DNA of 64,000 nucleotides from Halobacteriovorax sp. (GTDB lineage: Bacteria; Bdellovibrionota; Bacteriovoracia; Bacteriovoracales; Bacteriovoracaceae). The stretch covers positions 620,001-684,000 of the forward strand of contig PBIO01000014.1 in NCBI GenBank assembly GCA_002720865.1, given 5' to 3'. The notes below the pieces were generated by a model. It was not told the origin of the DNA and ran no database searches. It was given only the letters and a program-made list of their open reading frames with translations. Of the stretch, positions 5,208 to 53,867 are shown piece after piece. The position numbers and the translations under genes are program-made. Each line of letters opens with the position of its first letter. Position 1 is the first letter of the stretch.

Positions 5208-5573
5208 ATGGCATCAAAAGAAGTTTTAGAGGTAGGAAAATTTCAAAAACAGCTTTCAGATTTCGCTAAAGAAAGGGAATGGGAGCAGTTTCATTCACCA
5301 AAAAATATAGCTATGGCCTTATCTGTTGAAGCCTCAGAACTTATGGAAATATTCCAATGGAAGACCACTGACGAGTCCAGAGAGCTTTGTGAAAAGGATT
5401 TAAGAAAGGTTCAAGAGGAAGTCGCTGACGTCTTTTTATATACGATGAGAATGGCAGATCTTTTAAATATAAATATTGGTGAAGCTATTGAATCGAAGAT
5501 GGAGCAAAATGCTCAGAAGTACCCCGTTGATAAGTCACGGGGTAATTCTAAGAAGTATAATGAGTTAGATTAA
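5208..5573 (+). CDS. MazG-like / RS21-C6 type nucleotide pyrophosphohydrolase
   Basis: About 121 residues from the ATG at 5208; an in-frame ATG at 5181 adds nine residues without a ribosome site. The all-alpha MazG fold is indicated by HSPKNIAMALSVEASELMEIFQW, with the ExxE magnesium site, and by EEVADVFLYTMRMAD, with the E/D pair of the second half. Short single-domain members hydrolyse non-canonical or excess dNTPs (dCTPase, house-cleaning) to the monophosphate plus pyrophosphate. It is probably a cytosolic dimer or tetramer. The 3' end overlaps the convergent CHI-like gene by 4 nt. Confidence 0.85.
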   Translation: MASKEVLEVGKFQKQLSDFAKEREWEQFHSPKNIAMALSVEASELMEIFQWKTTDESRELCEKDLRKVQEEVADVFLYTMRMADLLNINIGEAIESKMEQNAQKYPVDKSRGNSKKYNELD

Positions 5574-31294: not shown

Positions 31295-32719
31295 TTAATT
31301 GCGTCTTAATACAGGAATTTTTGCCCCTAAAATTAAGGCAAGGGTTGTACAGAGAATACCGGCATAGAGTTCATCAATATTGGCCCAAAAACCGGTGTGT
31401 GTTGCGTTGCGCCAGTAACTTGTTCCTATGACGCCAACCACACAGGCAAAGACGAACTGACGATCTTTGATTTTTCCCGGGAACATATAGCCGTACATAA
31501 CCGGTAAAAGAAGACAGGCAGCACTATAAGATCCAAGAGTCTTCCAGACTGTTTTTATATTACCCTCAAAAATTAGGGCCATGACAATTGATAAAAGACC
31601 AACGGAAGCCACGCCGATATGGTGAAGGATTGGTTTTCCTTTGTATTTTTCTGGGACCAAGTCGTAACTTACGGTGGTGCCTGCTAAGAAAAGGTAACTA
31701 TCTAGGGTAGAAAGAATGGTCGCTAGAATTCCAGCTAAAACAAAGCCTCTTACACCCGGTGGAAGAATTTGAAGGGCATAAGTGAGGTAAGCATTCTCAC
31801 TGGCTGCTTCTGGAATAACCGCCTTAGCGTACATGGCACCAAAGGTTGTACAAATATCAAAGCAAAACCAAACAAAAGTTGAGATTAGAATTCCTTTTTT
31901 CGCAATCTTTGGTGACTTTGCTGCAAAAACTCTTTGATAGAAATTTGGATCTACTAAAGTTGATAGGGCTATAAAGCCCCAAACTAAAGTGGTCGCAATG
32001 GGGTATCCTCCCGTGAGACTAAAGTGATTTGCGGGAAGATTTTTTTGAAGGAATCCAAGCCCTCCGAAAGTTCCAACAGAAATCGCCAAAATTAGAAAAA
32101 CCCCAAGGCACATAACAAAGAATTGTATTAAGTCAGAAAAAACAACGGCCCTAAAACCACCCATCATCGAATAGGCAATAACGATGAGAACGCCGCCAAA
32201 CATATTAAGCCAAAGCTCTCCTCCGAAAAGAAGTTGGCTAAAAAGTCCAAGACTAATTGTGTAAGCAATAGGTAGGACATTAAAGAAATTAAAGATACCG
32301 CTTAGCTTCGCTGAATTTGGACCAAACATCTTTCCTATAAGATCAGGTAAAGTAACGGCCTTATAGGACTGAATTCGACTGATAATTAAAAATGCAAAGA
32401 GGATATAGGCCACGTACCAAAAAAGCCCCTGAGTAACAAAATTATAGAGACCTGATTCAAATGCTATTTTTGTGACTCCAAAAATCCCCCCATACCAAGT
32501 GGCCACGAGGGTGGCGATAAATAGTGGAAGAGTTAACTGACGACCCATTAAGAGTAAGTCTAAAAAATTAGCCTTTTCATTGGACTCATCAACCTCGTCG
32601 CTTTTTTTAAGCTGACCATAAACGACAGAGCCAATTGTAATAATAAGGACAATAAAAAAGACCACCCAATCAAGGGTGGTCAAAACTTCTGAATATTCAA
32701 TTGATGTTTTAAGTGACAT
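31295..32719 (-). CDS. Sodium:solute symporter (SSS) family transporter, candidate thiamine transporter
   Basis: 474 residues with about 13 hydrophobic segments. SSS hallmarks include WYGGIFGVTKIAFESGLYNF, YSMMGGFRAVVFSDLIQFFVM and the Na-site-like ATILSTLDSYLFLAGTT. A TPP riboswitch immediately upstream makes thiamine, or a precursor such as HMP, the likely cargo; SSS proteins under THI-box control have been proposed before as thiamine transporters. No thiamine biosynthesis gene is nearby, fitting salvage from prey. The Shine-Dalgarno GGGAG belongs to the 3' edge of the aptamer. Confidence 0.9.
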   Translation of the reverse strand: MSLKTSIEYSEVLTTLDWVVFFIVLIITIGSVVYGQLKKSDEVDESNEKANFLDLLLMGRQLTLPLFIATLVATWYGGIFGVTKIAFESGLYNFVTQGLFWYVAYILFAFLIISRIQSYKAVTLPDLIGKMFGPNSAKLSGIFNFFNVLPIAYTISLGLFSQLLFGGELWLNMFGGVLIVIAYSMMGGFRAVVFSDLIQFFVMCLGVFLILAISVGTFGGLGFLQKNLPANHFSLTGGYPIATTLVWGFIALSTLVDPNFYQRVFAAKSPKIAKKGILISTFVWFCFDICTTFGAMYAKAVIPEAASENAYLTYALQILPPGVRGFVLAGILATILSTLDSYLFLAGTTVSYDLVPEKYKGKPILHHIGVASVGLLSIVMALIFEGNIKTVWKTLGSYSAACLLLPVMYGYMFPGKIKDRQFVFACVVGVIGTSYWRNATHTGFWANIDELYAGILCTTLALILGAKIPVLRRN

Positions 32720-32812
32720 TTAATCTCCCTACGTCGGCATTATCCGAATCAAGTTAAAGGGTCGTGGTTTTCCACCTCTCAGCCTCTATTAAATCGGCTC
32801 CCCTGATTTGCA
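32720..32812 (-). promoter_or_regulatory. TPP (thiamin pyrophosphate) riboswitch
   Basis: Minus-strand reading gives the THI-box blocks in order. GGGGAGCC is followed by GGCTGAGAGGTGG, then ACCCTTTAACTTGATTCGG, then ATAATGCCGACGTAGGGA. The P1 ends AATC and GATT are complementary. The closing stem ends at the ribosome-binding site GGGAGATT, and the symporter ATG follows. There is no room for a separate terminator, so TPP binding probably blocks translation. Confidence 0.93.
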
Positions 32813-32845
32813 TGTCTTATAGTTTAACAGCTTTTCTTTAACAAG

Positions 32846-43788: not shown

Positions 43789-44397
43789 ATGAAACTTTTA
43801 ACTGTAATTCTATTTTTATTATCAACCACAGCTTCTGCTGACCTAATCACTCAAAGTGAAAAATTAACCAGAACCATCGATCAAAATCTTAGCCGATTAA
43901 ACGATACTAAAAAGCAAAGACTGCGAGGTCTTATAAAAGAGGCCATCGCTGTGGCCAGTAGTTCAACGGGAACACCTTCCTCTTGTTACGAGCAGGCCTA
44001 TAGAGAGTTTTATAATCAAACTCAAGCACAGGAGCTATGCTCAGGGGGCGGAACAGTTGAGACAGTGGCCTGCTATAAAAAAATGTATAGCGAGGTTTAT
44101 AATAAAGACCTAGCGATCCGACTCTGTAAACGCGGAGGAACTGTAGGTACCTATAACTGTTATAAAGCCACGTATTCAGATGTTTACAATAAAGACTTTG
44201 CCGTTTCCCTTTGTGAAAACAGAGGAAATGATGAAACTTTTCAGTGTTATAAAAAAATGTACTCAAATGTTTATAATAAAGAACAAGCAAAAACTCTTTG
44301 TATGAACGGTGGAACTCTTCAAACTTATTCATGTTATGAGAATATGTATTCTCAAACTTATAATAGAGACCGTTCCATTCAAACATGTAAAAACTAG
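43789..44397 (+). CDS. Secreted protein of 29-residue cysteine repeats
   Basis: 202 residues: signal peptide (1-17), a helical stretch (20-58), then repeats of exactly 29 residues starting at Cys66, 95, 124, 153 and a partial one at 182. The consensus is CYxxxYSxVYNKxxAxxLCxxGGTxxTYx, with cysteines at repeat positions 1 and 19, so intra- or inter-repeat disulfides are likely outside the cytoplasm. I know no named family for it. The regular unit suggests a solenoid or helical-hairpin array, perhaps for binding. It has its own terminator. Confidence 0.75.
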   Translation: MKLLTVILFLLSTTASADLITQSEKLTRTIDQNLSRLNDTKKQRLRGLIKEAIAVASSSTGTPSSCYEQAYREFYNQTQAQELCSGGGTVETVACYKKMYSEVYNKDLAIRLCKRGGTVGTYNCYKATYSDVYNKDFAVSLCENRGNDETFQCYKKMYSNVYNKEQAKTLCMNGGTLQTYSCYENMYSQTYNRDRSIQTCKN

Positions 44398-45205: not shown

Positions 45206-45234
45206 GAGGGCCAGGTTACTGGTCCTCTTATTTT
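45206..45234 (+). terminator. Rho-independent terminator of the lipoprotein gene
   Basis: GAGGGCCAG (45206-45214) pairs with CTGGTCCTC (45219-45227), one G-U, with loop GTTA. TTATTTT follows. Its tail overlaps the stop codon of the convergent hemolysin-III gene. Confidence 0.8.
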
Positions 45235-45872
45235 GGGAAGGCCACAACAATGGCAAGATAATGCATTGTGGTTCCGCCCATAACAAAAAGATGCCAAACC
45301 ATATGCGTATAGCGAATTCTCTTCATCATATAAAAAACTGAACCCACCGTATAAGAAAGACCACCAAATAGAATATAGTCCACTGATTTTTGAGGTAATA
45401 CTTCCTTTAAGTCAGACCACATAAAAAGAGCTGACCAGCCCATGGCCAAATATATAAAAAGAGAAAGTTTTCTTCGCTCCTTTTTTCCAAACAATTTAAA
45501 AAGAACTCCTCCTAAAGCATAAAGCCAGAAGAATGCGCAAAACCAAATACTTTTTGGAGTCGCGATATTAAACATCAAAAACGGAGTAAAGGTTCCTGCG
45601 ATCAAAATAAAGATGGCCATATGATCACATTTTTTTAGCATCAGCTTTCGCGTCTCATTCTTTTCTAAATGATAATAAGTCGAACTTAGGTACATTAAAA
45701 AAAGTGACAGCCCAAAGGCCCCATAACTTAAAACTGCTTTGGCCCCAAAAGGATAAGCGCTCCAAACCAAATCAAAAATCACATAAAGAGCAAAGAGAAC
45801 TCCAAAAAAATGCGTAAGGGCATTGGCTTTCTCTTCTGCCTCAGAATACTGAAATACTTTTTTGCTGGTCAT
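45228..45872 (-). CDS. Hemolysin III family (PAQR-like) membrane protein
   Basis: 214 residues with seven hydrophobic segments. Family motifs include EEKANALTHFFGVLFAL, SSTYYHLEK (Ser/His near helix 2), CDHMAIFILIAGTFTPF and RYTHMVWHLFVMGGTTMHY, whose histidines form the metal-site pattern of PAQR/YqfA proteins. Despite the name, haemolysis is not the general function; a membrane hydrolase or stress role is assumed. It is divergent from the accessory region. Confidence 0.9.
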   Translation of the reverse strand: MTSKKVFQYSEAEEKANALTHFFGVLFALYVIFDLVWSAYPFGAKAVLSYGAFGLSLFLMYLSSTYYHLEKNETRKLMLKKCDHMAIFILIAGTFTPFLMFNIATPKSIWFCAFFWLYALGGVLFKLFGKKERRKLSLFIYLAMGWSALFMWSDLKEVLPQKSVDYILFGGLSYTVGSVFYMMKRIRYTHMVWHLFVMGGTTMHYLAIVVAFPK

Positions 45873-45904
45873 GAATCCATTCTAATGGAATTGAAGAGAA
45901 GCTG

Positions 45905-45952
45905 TTGTAAAATATATGTCATGCGCACTAGGCCATAAACCTTGACACTTAT
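45905..45952 (+). repeat. 48-bp direct repeat, left copy
   Basis: It begins TTGTAAAATATATGTCATGC and ends AACCTTGACACTTAT. It matches 47987-48034 at 46 of 48 positions with no gaps. The two copies bracket the HigBA-metallopeptidase-lipoprotein genes. The repeat contains a TTGACA box. Confidence 0.95.
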
Positions 45953-46110
45953 GACCCCGAGTTCAATTTTTCTTGAATCTAATTGAGATTTTTATTCAAA
46001 ATTCAGTTAATTTAGTGCGAAATTCGACTATTCTGGAAAGAATATAATGACCCCCCTAAGTTTTCAGAAATATTTCTAAAACCTTTAACTTAAGTTGTTG
46101 AATACGCGAA

Positions 46111-46124
46111 AAGTAACCACGTAC
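46111..46124 (+). repeat. AAGTAACCACGTAC motif, copy 1
   Basis: The same 14 bases occur at 49144-49157, and the variant AAGTAACCAGGTA ends both 151-bp repeats (49067-49079 and 49923-49935). Both exact copies are preceded by CGCGAWA (W is A or T). Possibly a REP-like or recombination element. Confidence 0.65.
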
Positions 46125-46142
46125 CAGAAATTATCGATACTT

Positions 46143-47964: not shown

Positions 47965-47986
47965 TCTTTCACAGAACAAATCTCTC

Positions 47987-48034
47987 TTGTAAAATATATG
48001 TCATGCGCACCAGGCTATAAACCTTGACACTTAT
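47987..48034 (+). repeat. 48-bp direct repeat, right copy
   Basis: Matches 45905-45952 at 46 of 48 positions. It contains TTGACA 30 nt before the start codon of the small membrane ORF at 48058, so this copy is probably part of that gene's promoter. Confidence 0.95.
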
Positions 48035-48364: not shown

Positions 48365-48952
48365 ATGGAAAACTTACTCTTATCAGCTATTGAAACTTTT
48401 AATACTTTTTTTGGGAACTATGGTCTTTCAATCATCGCGATTACCCTTGTTATAAAATTTGTCACCTTACCACTGATGATTATCTCAGCTAAGAGCTCTA
48501 AAAAAATGGATCAAGTGAATAAAAAACTTAAGACCTATGAAAATTTAGAACCAGCCGAGCTGGCCCAAAAAAGAATCGAGCTCTTTAAAGAACATCAAAT
48601 CAATCCGCTCGCATCAATACTTCCGCTTCTAATCCAAGCCCCCATTTATTTTTTCTTATTCTCGGTCCTAAGTGGAAACTCATTCCATGGAAGCTTTATC
48701 TGGATTACAAACCTTGGGGCCTCTGACCCCTTTTTTATCCTACCCATTCTGGCCTGCCTTAGCTTTGCCATTCCCATGTTTCTAAAAAAGCAAAATGAAA
48801 TCCCCCAAACCATGAAGAAGCTTCAGTACATCCTTCCCGTCATAAGCTTTCTCTTCCTCTACAAAATGAAGGCCGCCGTCCTGCTCTACATCGCAACCAG
48901 CTCAATAATGTCTTCAATCACAACTTGGGGAATCGACCGCTTTTCATCTTAA
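48365..48952 (+). CDS. YidC/Oxa1-family membrane insertase, short paralogue
   Basis: 195 residues with about five hydrophobic segments and no large periplasmic domain; the main Gram-negative YidC is ~540. The family core is visible: NYGLSIIAITLVIKFVTLPLMI, the coiled loop KSSKKMDQVNKKLKTYE and LFKEHQINPLASILPLLIQAPIYFFLFSVL. An arginine in helix 1, needed in Bacillus YidC, is not seen; a Lys (VIKF) stands nearby. It likely inserts a subset of membrane proteins or acts as a backup insertase. Its 3' end is duplicated at 49785-49935. Confidence 0.85.
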   Translation: MENLLLSAIETFNTFFGNYGLSIIAITLVIKFVTLPLMIISAKSSKKMDQVNKKLKTYENLEPAELAQKRIELFKEHQINPLASILPLLIQAPIYFFLFSVLSGNSFHGSFIWITNLGASDPFFILPILACLSFAIPMFLKKQNEIPQTMKKLQYILPVISFLFLYKMKAAVLLYIATSSIMSSITTWGIDRFSS

Positions 48953-49079
48953 AAATATTTAAATTTTCTGGCGTAGTTCTCTTTCCTGCAAAGAGAGTAA
49001 ATTTTAACGTGAGACACGGATAACTCAATCAGTTTTGCTTTCTTGAAACAACATTTTCATTTCTACAAGTAACCAGGTA
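48929..49079 (+). repeat. 151-bp direct repeat, copy A (overlaps the yidC-like 3' end)
   Basis: It begins GGAATCGACCGCTTTTCATC, the last codons of the YidC-like gene, and ends at AAGTAACCAGGTA. By eye it differs from copy B at about 9 of 151 positions, without gaps. The non-coding part contains a hairpin-like CTCTTTCCTGCAAAGAGAG. Confidence 0.95.
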
Positions 49080-49143
49080 CCTAATGAGGTCCGCAGCGGA
49101 CTGCATTTATGAAATTGAGCAAGTAAGCAGTTGATTCCGCGAT

Positions 49144-49157
49144 AAGTAACCACGTAC
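49144..49157 (+). repeat. AAGTAACCACGTAC motif, copy 2
   Basis: Identical to 46111-46124 and preceded by CGCGATA. It lies 65 nt inside the left edge of the segment bounded by the 151-bp repeats. A perfect GTCCGC-A-GCGGAC palindrome lies ~45 nt upstream. Confidence 0.65.
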
Positions 49158-49167
49158 TAATCAAAAG

Positions 49168-49212
49168 TTGAGTAACTGTATAGGGAGTTTTTGCCTTCCC
49201 TAAATTACTCAA
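49168..49212 (+). promoter_or_regulatory. Two-part stem-loop before the barrel-like gene
   Basis: The outer stem TTGAGTAA/TTACTCAA (8 bp) and inner stem TAGGGA/TCCCTA (6 bp) stack with short bulges. TATAAT follows at 49222-49227, 6 nt before the GTG start of the next gene. The stem could terminate or insulate upstream transcription. Confidence 0.5.
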
Positions 49213-49233
49213 TAAACTTGTTATAATTAGCTG

Positions 49234-49770
49234 GTGAACAGTTTAAAAATGTTTCTGATTATATTATTTGTTTTGTCTCCATCTAAGTGCCTTAGTTCTT
49301 ATTTTGTAGGTTTGAATTCAACTTATTCTGCTAAAAATTCACATCCTGAACATCACAATGATCCGCCTGCTTTAGGTAAAGTTAACTTTGGAGGCTCGAT
49401 AGGACATATTTCAGAAACCACAATAAAGAAAAAAATAGGAGTACAAGGAAAAATTATGATTTCTTTTGATAATGTGGAAATTATTGATCCTAGGGATAAC
49501 GTTACTAAGAGCGATGCAATTTCCAGTGTAAAGTTTGGTTTAAATTTCTTTTCAAATTTCCCCGTATTTGGGAACTTTATGCTTGGAGTCTCTGCAAATA
49601 ATTTTTCTCAAAAGATAAATGAGAGAGAATTTATATTGGGAATCTGTTACTCCGTTGGACTAGGCTTTAGATTTGGACCATTTGATTTATTAACTTCCCT
49701 TGAAAATAGTGACTTAGGACCAACAGGTAAACTTAGATTTTTCTCAACATCTCTAATTTTAAATTTTTAA
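49234..49770 (+). CDS. Exported beta-barrel-like protein of unknown function
   Basis: 178 residues from a GTG; an ATG at 49249 would give a shorter start. Signal peptide (MFLIILFVLSPSKCLSS) is followed by alternating strands rich in Phe, Gly and Ser and a terminal SLILNF ending in Phe, the usual outer-membrane barrel signature. Not a named family. It is the only gene in the 705-bp segment bounded by the 151-bp repeats. A TATAAT box 6 nt before the GTG leaves almost no 5' UTR, so the mRNA may be leaderless or use the ATG. Confidence 0.6.
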   Translation: MNSLKMFLIILFVLSPSKCLSSYFVGLNSTYSAKNSHPEHHNDPPALGKVNFGGSIGHISETTIKKKIGVQGKIMISFDNVEIIDPRDNVTKSDAISSVKFGLNFFSNFPVFGNFMLGVSANNFSQKINEREFILGICYSVGLGFRFGPFDLLTSLENSDLGPTGKLRFFSTSLILNF

Positions 49771-49784
49771 TGTTACTTTCGTTT

Positions 49785-49935
49785 GGAATCGACCGCTTTT
49801 CATCTTAAAGATATTTAAGTTTTCTGGTGTAGCTCTCTTTCCTGCAAAGAGAGTAAATTTTAACGTGAGACAAGGATAACTCAATCAATATTGCGTTCTT
49901 GAAACAAAATTTTCATTTCTACAAGTAACCAGGTA
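49785..49935 (+). repeat. 151-bp direct repeat, copy B
   Basis: A second copy of the YidC-like gene's last codons and following sequence, about 94% identical to copy A by eye. It starts 14 nt after the barrel gene stop. The coding part is a remnant, not attached to any ORF. Confidence 0.95.
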
Positions 49936-52165: not shown

Positions 52166-52243
52166 TGGTACTCCGTAGGGGATTCGAACCCCTGTTACCG
52201 CCGTGAAAAGGCGGTGTCCTAGACCGGGCTAGACGAACGGAGC
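52166..52243 (-). tRNA. tRNA-Glu (anticodon TTC)
   Basis: Minus strand: acceptor GCTCCGT/ACGGAGT (first pair G-U), anticodon stem CCGCC/GGCGG with loop TTTTCAC giving TTC, T-arm with GGTTCGAATCC, and encoded CCA at 52166-52168. It is the second gene of a tRNA-Lys/tRNA-Glu transcript. Confidence 0.95.
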
Positions 52244-52342
52244 ATATCTGGACTACTTCTTGAAAACATCTGTGGAGGTGATTCCAAGAGCTAGTCCAAA
52301 AATGGTTTGCCTCGAAAGCTAGTACCAATTCGGTGTTTTTAA

Positions 52343-52419
52343 TGGTGAACCCTCTGCGACTCGAACGCAGGACCCTCTCCTTAAAAGGGAGATGCTCTAA
52401 CCAACTGAGCTAAGGGTCC
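52343..52419 (-). tRNA. tRNA-Lys (anticodon TTT)
   Basis: Minus strand, 77 nt. Acceptor GGACCCT/AGGGTTC, D-arm GCTC/GAGC, anticodon stem TCTCC/GGAGA with loop CTTTTAA giving TTT, T-arm CTGCG/CGCAG, and encoded CCA at 52343-52345. Confidence 0.95.
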
Positions 52420-52439
52420 ACATTTAAAACGTAAGAAGG

Positions 52440-52468
52440 AATGTAGTTTTCTCGGGCTTTTTTGTCAA
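52440..52468 (-). promoter_or_regulatory. Sigma-70-type promoter of the tRNA operon
   Basis: On the minus strand TTGACA (52463-52468) and TACATT (52440-52445) are 17 nt apart, 20 nt before tRNA-Lys. Confidence 0.75.
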
Positions 52469-52509
52469 TTTGAAATGTAAGTAATTTTGCACCTTTGTCA
52501 GAAAATTTC

Positions 52510-52538
52510 TTGCGCATTGGGAGAGGGCTTACTAGATT
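52510..52538 (+). promoter_or_regulatory. Candidate promoter of mtaB
   Basis: TTGCGC (52510-52515) and TAGATT (52533-52538), spacer 17 nt. The expected start near 52545 leaves a 5' UTR of about 9 nt, and no Shine-Dalgarno is present. Confidence 0.5.
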
Positions 52539-52553
52539 GGGCACCTGCAAAAT

Positions 52554-53867
52554 ATGAGTGAATCAAACGAAAACATATTGACTGGTGAAAAGAAGAGAGT
52601 GGCCGTCCATACTCTGGGCTGTCGTCTGAATTTCTCTGAAACTGGCTCTATTTCCCAAGGATTCGCCGATCGTGGCTATGAGATCGTGCCTTTTGGGGAA
52701 GAAGCTGAGGTTACTTTTATCAACACCTGCACAGTGACGGATGACGCTGATTCAAGCTGTAGGAGCCTTATACGTAAGGCTCACCGATCTTCGCCAGAAG
52801 GGAAGATTGTGGTAGCGGGTTGCTACGCCCAAATGGACCCGAAAACTATTTCTGGGATGCAGGGCGTTGATTTAGTCTTAGGAACTTCTGAAAAATATAA
52901 GGTTTTTGATTATCTTGGTGAGGAAGAAGAGCAGGTTGTGGCCGTAGATAAAACAAATTTGTTTTGGGGCGCTTCAACAAGTCCTGCCGATAATCACACC
53001 CGCGCTTTTTTAAAAATTCAGGATGGCTGCAATTATGTGTGCAGCTTTTGCATTATTCCCCAGGCCAGAGGCAGATCTCGGACTATCACCGTGGATCAGG
53101 CCGTTTCAGAGGCTCAAGCTTTAGTTGAGAACGGCTTTAAGGAGATAGTGCTTACTGGAGTTAATATTGGTGAGTACGAGTCCACAAGCGGAGAAAAGCT
53201 CACTGATTTAGTTCGAAGAATTTTGGCCATTGAAGGACTTAAGAGATTACGTCTTTCTTCGGTGGAGCCAAACACGATTACTGATGAGCTTTTGGATGTA
53301 CTGGAAGCTTCAGATAAGTTTATGGATCATTTTCATATCCCCATGCAAAGTGGCTGCGATGAGATTTTAACGTCCATGAAAAGAAAATATGATGTGGCCT
53401 TTTATAAGGAGATTATAAATAAGATCCTTTTAAGATTTCCAAATGCTGCCATTGGGGCGGATATGATTGTTGGCTATCCGGGTGAAACCGAGGAGCAGTT
53501 TAAGGAAACTTATAATCTGGCCAAAGAGCTTCCCATTACTCACTTCCATGTTTTTCCTTACTCAAAGAGAAAGGGAACCATTGCGGCGAGATCTGAAAAT
53601 CATATTCATCAAGCAGTGAAGAAGGAGAGATCCCGCGCTCTTCATATGTTTGGAGAGGCCAAGCTTGCCATGCTTTCAGAAGATATGGTGGGAACTTCTA
53701 CTGAGGTGTTATTTGAGCGCCGAAATAAGGAAGGCTTCTTCGGTGGATATAGTACGAATTTCGTTAAAGTTTTTGTTAAGACGGATTCCGATTTAAAGAA
53801 TGAAATCCGCCGCGTGCATCTTACGAGCTTTAGAGATGGAAAGCTCTACGGTGAGCTGATTCAATAA
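52554..53867 (+). CDS. mtaB: tRNA (t6A37-C2)-methylthiotransferase MtaB
   Basis: 437 residues. The N-terminal UPF0004 domain binds one cluster through HTLGCRLN, NTCTVT and VAGCYAQ. The radical-SAM domain has the CxxxCxxC motif in CNYVCSFCIIPQARG. A C-terminal TRAM-like region is at ~375-437. It converts t6A37 to ms2t6A37 in tRNAs reading ANN codons. The HTLGCRLN form separates MtaB from MiaB and RimO. It shares a divergent promoter region with the tRNA-Lys/Glu genes. Confidence 0.93.
   Translation: MSESNENILTGEKKRVAVHTLGCRLNFSETGSISQGFADRGYEIVPFGEEAEVTFINTCTVTDDADSSCRSLIRKAHRSSPEGKIVVAGCYAQMDPKTISGMQGVDLVLGTSEKYKVFDYLGEEEEQVVAVDKTNLFWGASTSPADNHTRAFLKIQDGCNYVCSFCIIPQARGRSRTITVDQAVSEAQALVENGFKEIVLTGVNIGEYESTSGEKLTDLVRRILAIEGLKRLRLSSVEPNTITDELLDVLEASDKFMDHFHIPMQSGCDEILTSMKRKYDVAFYKEIINKILLRFPNAAIGADMIVGYPGETEEQFKETYNLAKELPITHFHVFPYSKRKGTIAARSENHIHQAVKKERSRALHMFGEAKLAMLSEDMVGTSTEVLFERRNKEGFFGGYSTNFVKVFVKTDSDLKNEIRRVHLTSFRDGKLYGELIQ

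Follow-up and report, generated by a model that had tools for sequence, protein, structure and literature searches.

A 151-bp direct repeat in a Halobacteriovorax gene-swapping hotspot resembles a duplicated REP-type module more than an integration scar

A pair of 151-bp direct repeats brackets an orphan gene behind a YidC-like gene in the window, the 64,000-nt stretch of DNA from Halobacteriovorax sp., a lineage of predatory bacteria, that was analyzed here. Its features fit duplication of a REP-type module better than integration of a circle. Our favored explanation, to which we give slightly less than an even chance, is that a module consisting of the yidC-like tail, its 3' UTR and a REP-like motif was copied to a site 856 bp downstream, either through a RAYT (a Y1 HUH transposase) or through REP-primed recombination. 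This explanation was favored because the right boundary of the repeat is the end of the motif, duplications of flank plus motif recur in the genus, and the contig is without a tyrosine recombinase. Genus-limited dispersal of the motif, its association with RAYT genes and its enrichment at synteny breaks also support it. As no empty-site relative was found, we infer the mechanism.

The repeat pair and the genes around it

Repeat search and self-BLAST returned two ungapped copies of 151 nt, identical at 142 positions (94.0%, 9 mismatches; E 5e-62) and spaced 856 bp apart, which reproduces exactly the coordinates, length and ~94% identity given in the original prediction. The initial 24 nt (GGA ATC GAC CGC TTT TCA TCT TAA) are the 3' terminus of the 195-aa YidC-like ORF (7 codons and the stop), and the interval between the copies holds a single 178-aa ORF and no integrase gene; both points had been read correctly from the sequence. 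Beyond that reading, the final ~31 bp of the repeat were found to be dispersed, a class-B motif was found after copy 1, and a neighboring 51-bp repeat proved equally identical (Table 1). Copy 1 carries a complete class-A motif, copy 2 one without the outer CCTAAT, and 14 bp of non-repeat sequence separate the orphan stop from copy 2.

The 151-bp repeat is not due to chance, because at ≥38 bp and ≥86% identity only three local direct repeats, with copies no more than 8 kb apart, were found in the 1.41-Mb contig (C14): this pair, the 51-bp pair 3 kb upstream, and a distant tRNA-Ser 3'-end pair, which looks like a typical tRNA-gene integration. The first two lie less than 4 kb apart, in the window. 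The 51-bp pair encloses higBA and two further accessory genes.

The 195-aa YidC-like ORF represents an accessory paralog. Housekeeping YidC is a separate full-length protein of 495 aa (G000:C14:227815, G000 being the genome of the window), and housekeeping yidC was accordingly rejected as the target. Orthologs of the paralog or the orphan were found neither by DNA (59 relatives) nor by protein (39 and 192 relatives), and phage searches with the YidC-like protein gave remote Oxa1/YidC matches only. The orphan had no match in Pfam or NCBIfam, no relatives in 84,980 GTDB species genomes or in plasmids, and no convincing counterpart among 192 related genomes, which bears out its predicted foreign character; its AF2 model (mean pLDDT 34) was unusable for fold. 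No gene-free relative with one repeat copy was found, and no relative searched carries the YidC-like paralog.

The Rfam search at the repeat gave no credible match, and the 3' UTR of the window copies folded no better than shuffles (z -0.1 and -1.4). The idea that the repeat contains a conserved RNA hairpin was dropped, since folding was significant at locus L132 only and not in the window copies. Integron attC cassettes resemble the arrangement in that a 3'-end module of ~110-150 bp is repeated behind consecutive genes, but the repeat here holds coding sequence of the first gene and its ends, GGAATCG... and ...CCAGGTA, read from the sequence, are without the core sites GTTRRRY/RYYYAAC; attC was therefore rejected.

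Table 1. Features of the window (plain coordinates) and related features elsewhere in the genus (genome, contig or locus given)
Feature	Position	Strand	Remarks
hlyIII	45228-45872		Conserved left flank
Variable hotspot segment	45873-52118		Between conserved hlyIII and tRNA-Glu/tRNA-Lys/mtaB; content wholly different in G002
51-bp direct repeat, left copy	45902-45952	+	Pair 94.1% identical; upstream of hlyIII
Class-B REP-like motif	46102-46127	+	Precedes higBA toxin-antitoxin genes
51-bp direct repeat, right copy	47984-48034	+	Just upstream of 82-aa ORF/yidC-like operon
YidC/Oxa1-like accessory paralog, 195 aa	48365-48952	+	ORF; Pfam 60KD_IMP 9e-33
151-bp repeat, copy 1	48929-49079	+	YidC-like tail (last 8 codons including stop), 3' UTR with CTCTTT-CCTGC-AAAGAG inverted repeat, class-A motif at right end
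Class-A REP-like motif, TTTTCATTTCTACAAGTAACCAGGTACCTAAT	49054-49085	+	Copy 1, complete
Class-B REP-like motif, TTCCGCGATAAGTAACCACGTACTAA	49135-49160	+	Class B also flanks RAYT gene at G000:C31
Enclosed orphan, 178 aa	49234-49770	+	ORF between repeat copies; exported (signal-peptide-like start)
151-bp repeat, copy 2	49785-49935	+	94.0% identical to copy 1; terminal class-A motif truncated at CAGGTA/TCAGGG
tRNA-Glu/tRNA-Lys/mtaB	52166-53867		Conserved right flank
tRNA-Ser 3'-end repeat, 69 bp, 98.6%	G000:C14:175574-175641 / 179754-179822		Around 4.1-kb stretch
Peptidase-gene 3' end, 56-58 bp	L111 (G000:C3)		Duplicated across 0.5-kb stretch; copy 2 ends at GGTACC, the motif's outer end
Small gene's 3' end, 151 bp	L123 (G002:C1)		Duplicated; copy 2 joins class-A motif within shared 9-bp CAAGTAACC
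tRNA-Glu 3' end + terminator, 63 bp, 100%	L137:4025-4087 / 5365-5427 (G002:C2:55024-56426)		Around 1.3 kb; motif adjacent; same hotspot
RAYT gene	G002:C2		Class A on both sides, inverted orientation
RAYT gene	G000:C14		Class A on one side, 86 bp upstream; gene at about 1113534-1114079 (L109:18535-19080)
RAYT gene	G000:C31		Bracketed by class B
RAYT gene	G000:C19		Bracketed by class C, TCCAAAAGGAAGCGTGTACC

Dispersed REP-like motifs and RAYT genes

When the 151 bp were searched against the whole genome, many matches were obtained, restricted to the last ~26 bp; the repeat terminates in a 31-bp dispersed motif (class A, TTTTCATTTnTACAAGTAACCAGGTACCTAAT), and the motif end is its right boundary. 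Fifteen exact copies of the class-A 14-mer core were counted genome-wide and 0 in the reversed control, with 16 class-A matches in the closest congener (G001), 28 in a second congener (G002) and essentially none in other genera. Among 84,980 GTDB species genomes, a collection from which the window's own genome is possibly absent, the sole matches to a 27-position version came from two MAGs labeled Halobacteriovorax sp. The window has two sites of class B (CGCGAAAAGTAACCACGTACC), and a third class, C, lies around a RAYT gene on another contig. Like REPs, the motifs are short, multi-copy, lineage-specific and nearly all intergenic.

Across G000 and G002, 6 Y1 HUH transposase genes were identified, all matching PF01797 above its cutoff; their best NCBIfam match was NF047646 'REP-associated tyrosine transposase' (E 1e-16 to 6e-20, in every case under its curated 80-bit cutoff). 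Four of the 6 have motifs of class A, B or C beside them at ≤200 bp, as in the REPtron, where cognate REPs surround the TnpA_REP gene (PMC6006769). No RAYT was found in the G001 assembly, which is only 81% complete yet holds motif matches. Because the motifs flank RAYT genes, each of which has a cognate class in inverted orientation, they behave as REP-like sequences.

The resemblance to REP/REPtron systems thus extends to short dispersed intergenic motifs, class-specific inverted flanks of a Y1 HUH gene, several classes per genome and restriction to a lineage. It ends at copy number, ~15-28 class-A copies per genome here versus hundreds, and at the GT[AG]G foot and strong hairpin that are canonical for REPs. 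These are missing here (the conserved class-A end is GGTAC, its hairpin is weak and GTAG is absent), and the motifs are therefore called no more than 'REP-like', although TnpA_REP subclass 2.6 and class 3 are known to have atypical REPs that lack GT[AG]G (PMC6006769). Each window copy carries a single class-A motif in the same orientation and not the inverted doublet of a REPIN; inverted pairs occur elsewhere, at L132 and on G000:C27, where a near-perfect palindrome (44025-44082) is formed by two class-A motifs back to back in REPIN-like fashion. Separately, an inverted class-C-like pair at G000:C14:1251172-1251584 was seen to frame one gene conserved in G002, and a G000-specific 2-kb insertion begins at the outer side of its right motif.

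About 100 bp upstream of the class-A motif, the signature CTGGYGTRG-N-CCTGCA was found 4 times in three whole genomes, in both window copies and at two G002 sites, one of them in the same hotspot; this specificity is descriptive, because the pattern was derived from those same sites. The region forms a hairpin in G002, strong by shuffle test at L132 only.

A gene-swapping hotspot and synteny breaks at the motifs

The locus from hlyIII to tRNA-Glu/tRNA-Lys/mtaB is a gene-swapping hotspot. G002 has both flanks, with hlyIII at 48805-49446 and, at 56.4-58.1 kb, tRNA-Glu, tRNA-Lys and mtaB (91% identical). No gene that it holds between hlyIII and tRNA-Glu matches those of the window, and a class-A motif lies 22 bp from its conserved right flank. 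G001, whose contigs end at mtaB and inside hlyIII, was left out of this comparison. A foreign insertion had been proposed for this locus, and its wholly different content in G002 substantiates gene gain there.

Synteny was compared between G002:C2 (629 kb) and the collinear part of C14. Synteny-broken segments contained 24 of 25 REP-like motifs versus 3169 of 6000 random intergenic positions (53%), and an aligned block edge lay ≤60 bp from 10 of the 25 motifs versus 559 of the 6000 positions; most class-A motifs on both contigs are clustered in one scrambled zone (G000:C14:892000-1133000 / G002:C2:251000-475000) and are therefore not independent, so no P value is given. That zone of scrambled gene order (C14 892-1133 kb) lies between otherwise collinear congeners. 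On other contigs, breaks between L113 and L122 and between L111 and L131 fall at, or ≤~50 bp from, motifs common to both species. A polarity rule, by which variable DNA would always lie on the TTTTCA side of the motif, fitted close edges, failed across all sites and was dropped. The genus pattern contrasts with Pseudomonas, where REPs avoid variable segments and acquired or variable regions are REP deserts (PMC3390384). A lineage with few REP-like sites, placed at nearly every synteny break examined around them and carrying flank duplications, would make such junctions directly readable.

The main and strong rival, which we regard as possible but clearly doubtful, is that two divergent versions of the hotspot recombined. 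A donor allele carrying a yidC-like gene, 3' UTR, motif and orphan would have entered by homologous recombination on the left and by an illegitimate joint with the 3' end of the recipient's yidC on the right, so that the gained gene would now have the donor's form of the 151 bp on one side and the recipient's on the other. Such homology-facilitated illegitimate recombination is described for other bacteria (PMC3240628). It accounts for the ~6% divergence in both pairs and for the gene gain between: the two hotspot pairs have matching identity (94.0 and 94.1%), as from one donor-recipient divergence, and each encloses accessory genes, the G002 hotspot is wholly different, and the L123 junction falls within the 9-bp microhomology. 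Equal divergence fits equal age equally well, no donor allele is known, and recombination between alleles alone leaves the repeats beside RAYT-associated motifs unexplained, though hotspot motifs could supply microhomology.

Recurring flank duplications and the proposed copying of a module

Direct repeats of 51-151 bp recur beside REP-like motifs in the genus (Table 1), and repeats of ≥45 bp and ≥90% identity were found at none of 138 control positions in the same loci. Since these loci were sampled for motifs, the unbiased evidence is that of the scans of C14 and G002:C2; in the latter (≥45 bp, ≥90% identity), the tRNA-Glu repeat was the only case other than protein repeats.

Ordinary integration at a tRNA gene can account for this tRNA-Glu repeat, which bears on the original prediction that a non-autonomous element or circle integrated at the yidC-like 3' end; the 151 bp would then be attL/attR. 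As in tRNA islands and e14-type elements, the gene 3' end is restored and a displaced copy lies beyond the foreign DNA, and the G002 duplication, in the same hotspot, looks like a genuine case. However, a PF00589 profile search for tyrosine recombinases gave 8 matches in the genome and 0 on C14, the repeats hold only one orphan gene, the repeat stops on the right where a dispersed, RAYT-associated motif stops, and at other genes this motif is found next to unrelated repeats. With 'yidC' being an accessory paralog as well, the proposed integration found no support, and we judge site-specific integration of a circle less likely than the copying of a module, indeed improbable. A common dispersed intergenic element had been named as the finding that would speak against insertion, and this holds for the right boundary of the repeat, which is the end of such a motif.

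A plain tandem duplication of the 151 bp whose junction later received the orphan is very unlikely, as is a tandem duplication of yidC that has since been mostly overwritten. Tandem motif units with flanks do exist in G002 (L123:17217-17316), but a second event would be needed exactly at the junction, and the 14 bp before copy 2 and the full outer motif end after copy 1 do not fit.

Under module copying, the module behind the yidC-like gene would have been copied behind the adjacent orphan gene, either by a RAYT acting in trans on single-stranded DNA or through template switching primed where the DNA broke or a fork stalled at the motif. Copy 1 would be the source and copy 2 derived from it, since copy 1 has the complete motif and a coding part that belongs to the reading frame of yidC; the orphan would be a neighbor and need not be what moved. 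A precedent for the incorporation of flanks is found in the ordered REPIN clusters of Pseudomonas fluorescens SBW25, in which REP units are repeated in tandem with flanking sequence and non-repeated stretches lie between units (PMC3116915, Fig. S7). Unlike the units of those clusters, the two copies here are separated by a 0.7-kb spacer that contains a gene, and each holds a single motif and no inverted doublet. Against module copying, the left boundary of copy 2 is without a recognised RAYT cleavage site, the motifs lack a GTAG foot or strong hairpin, and the window 3' UTR is not unusually structured. The 51-bp repeat lies ~150 bp from its nearest motif and is equally identical, so a shared non-REP cause may be involved. 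A literature search found no experimental demonstration of RAYT movement of flanking DNA. A wider proposal, that RAYTs mobilise REP-ended DNA together with neighboring gene ends or whole accessory genes, so that REP-like motifs are the ends of small gene cassettes driving turnover and the 50-150-bp flank duplications are their scars, is rather unlikely.

Two further features of the window were recorded. Positions 43789-44397 encode a 202-aa secreted protein with Cys-containing repeats of ~29 residues (CYKKMYSEVYNKD...), the DNA repeats being 68% identical, and a TPP riboswitch (Rfam RF00059, 65 bits) lies at 32709-32814 on the minus strand.
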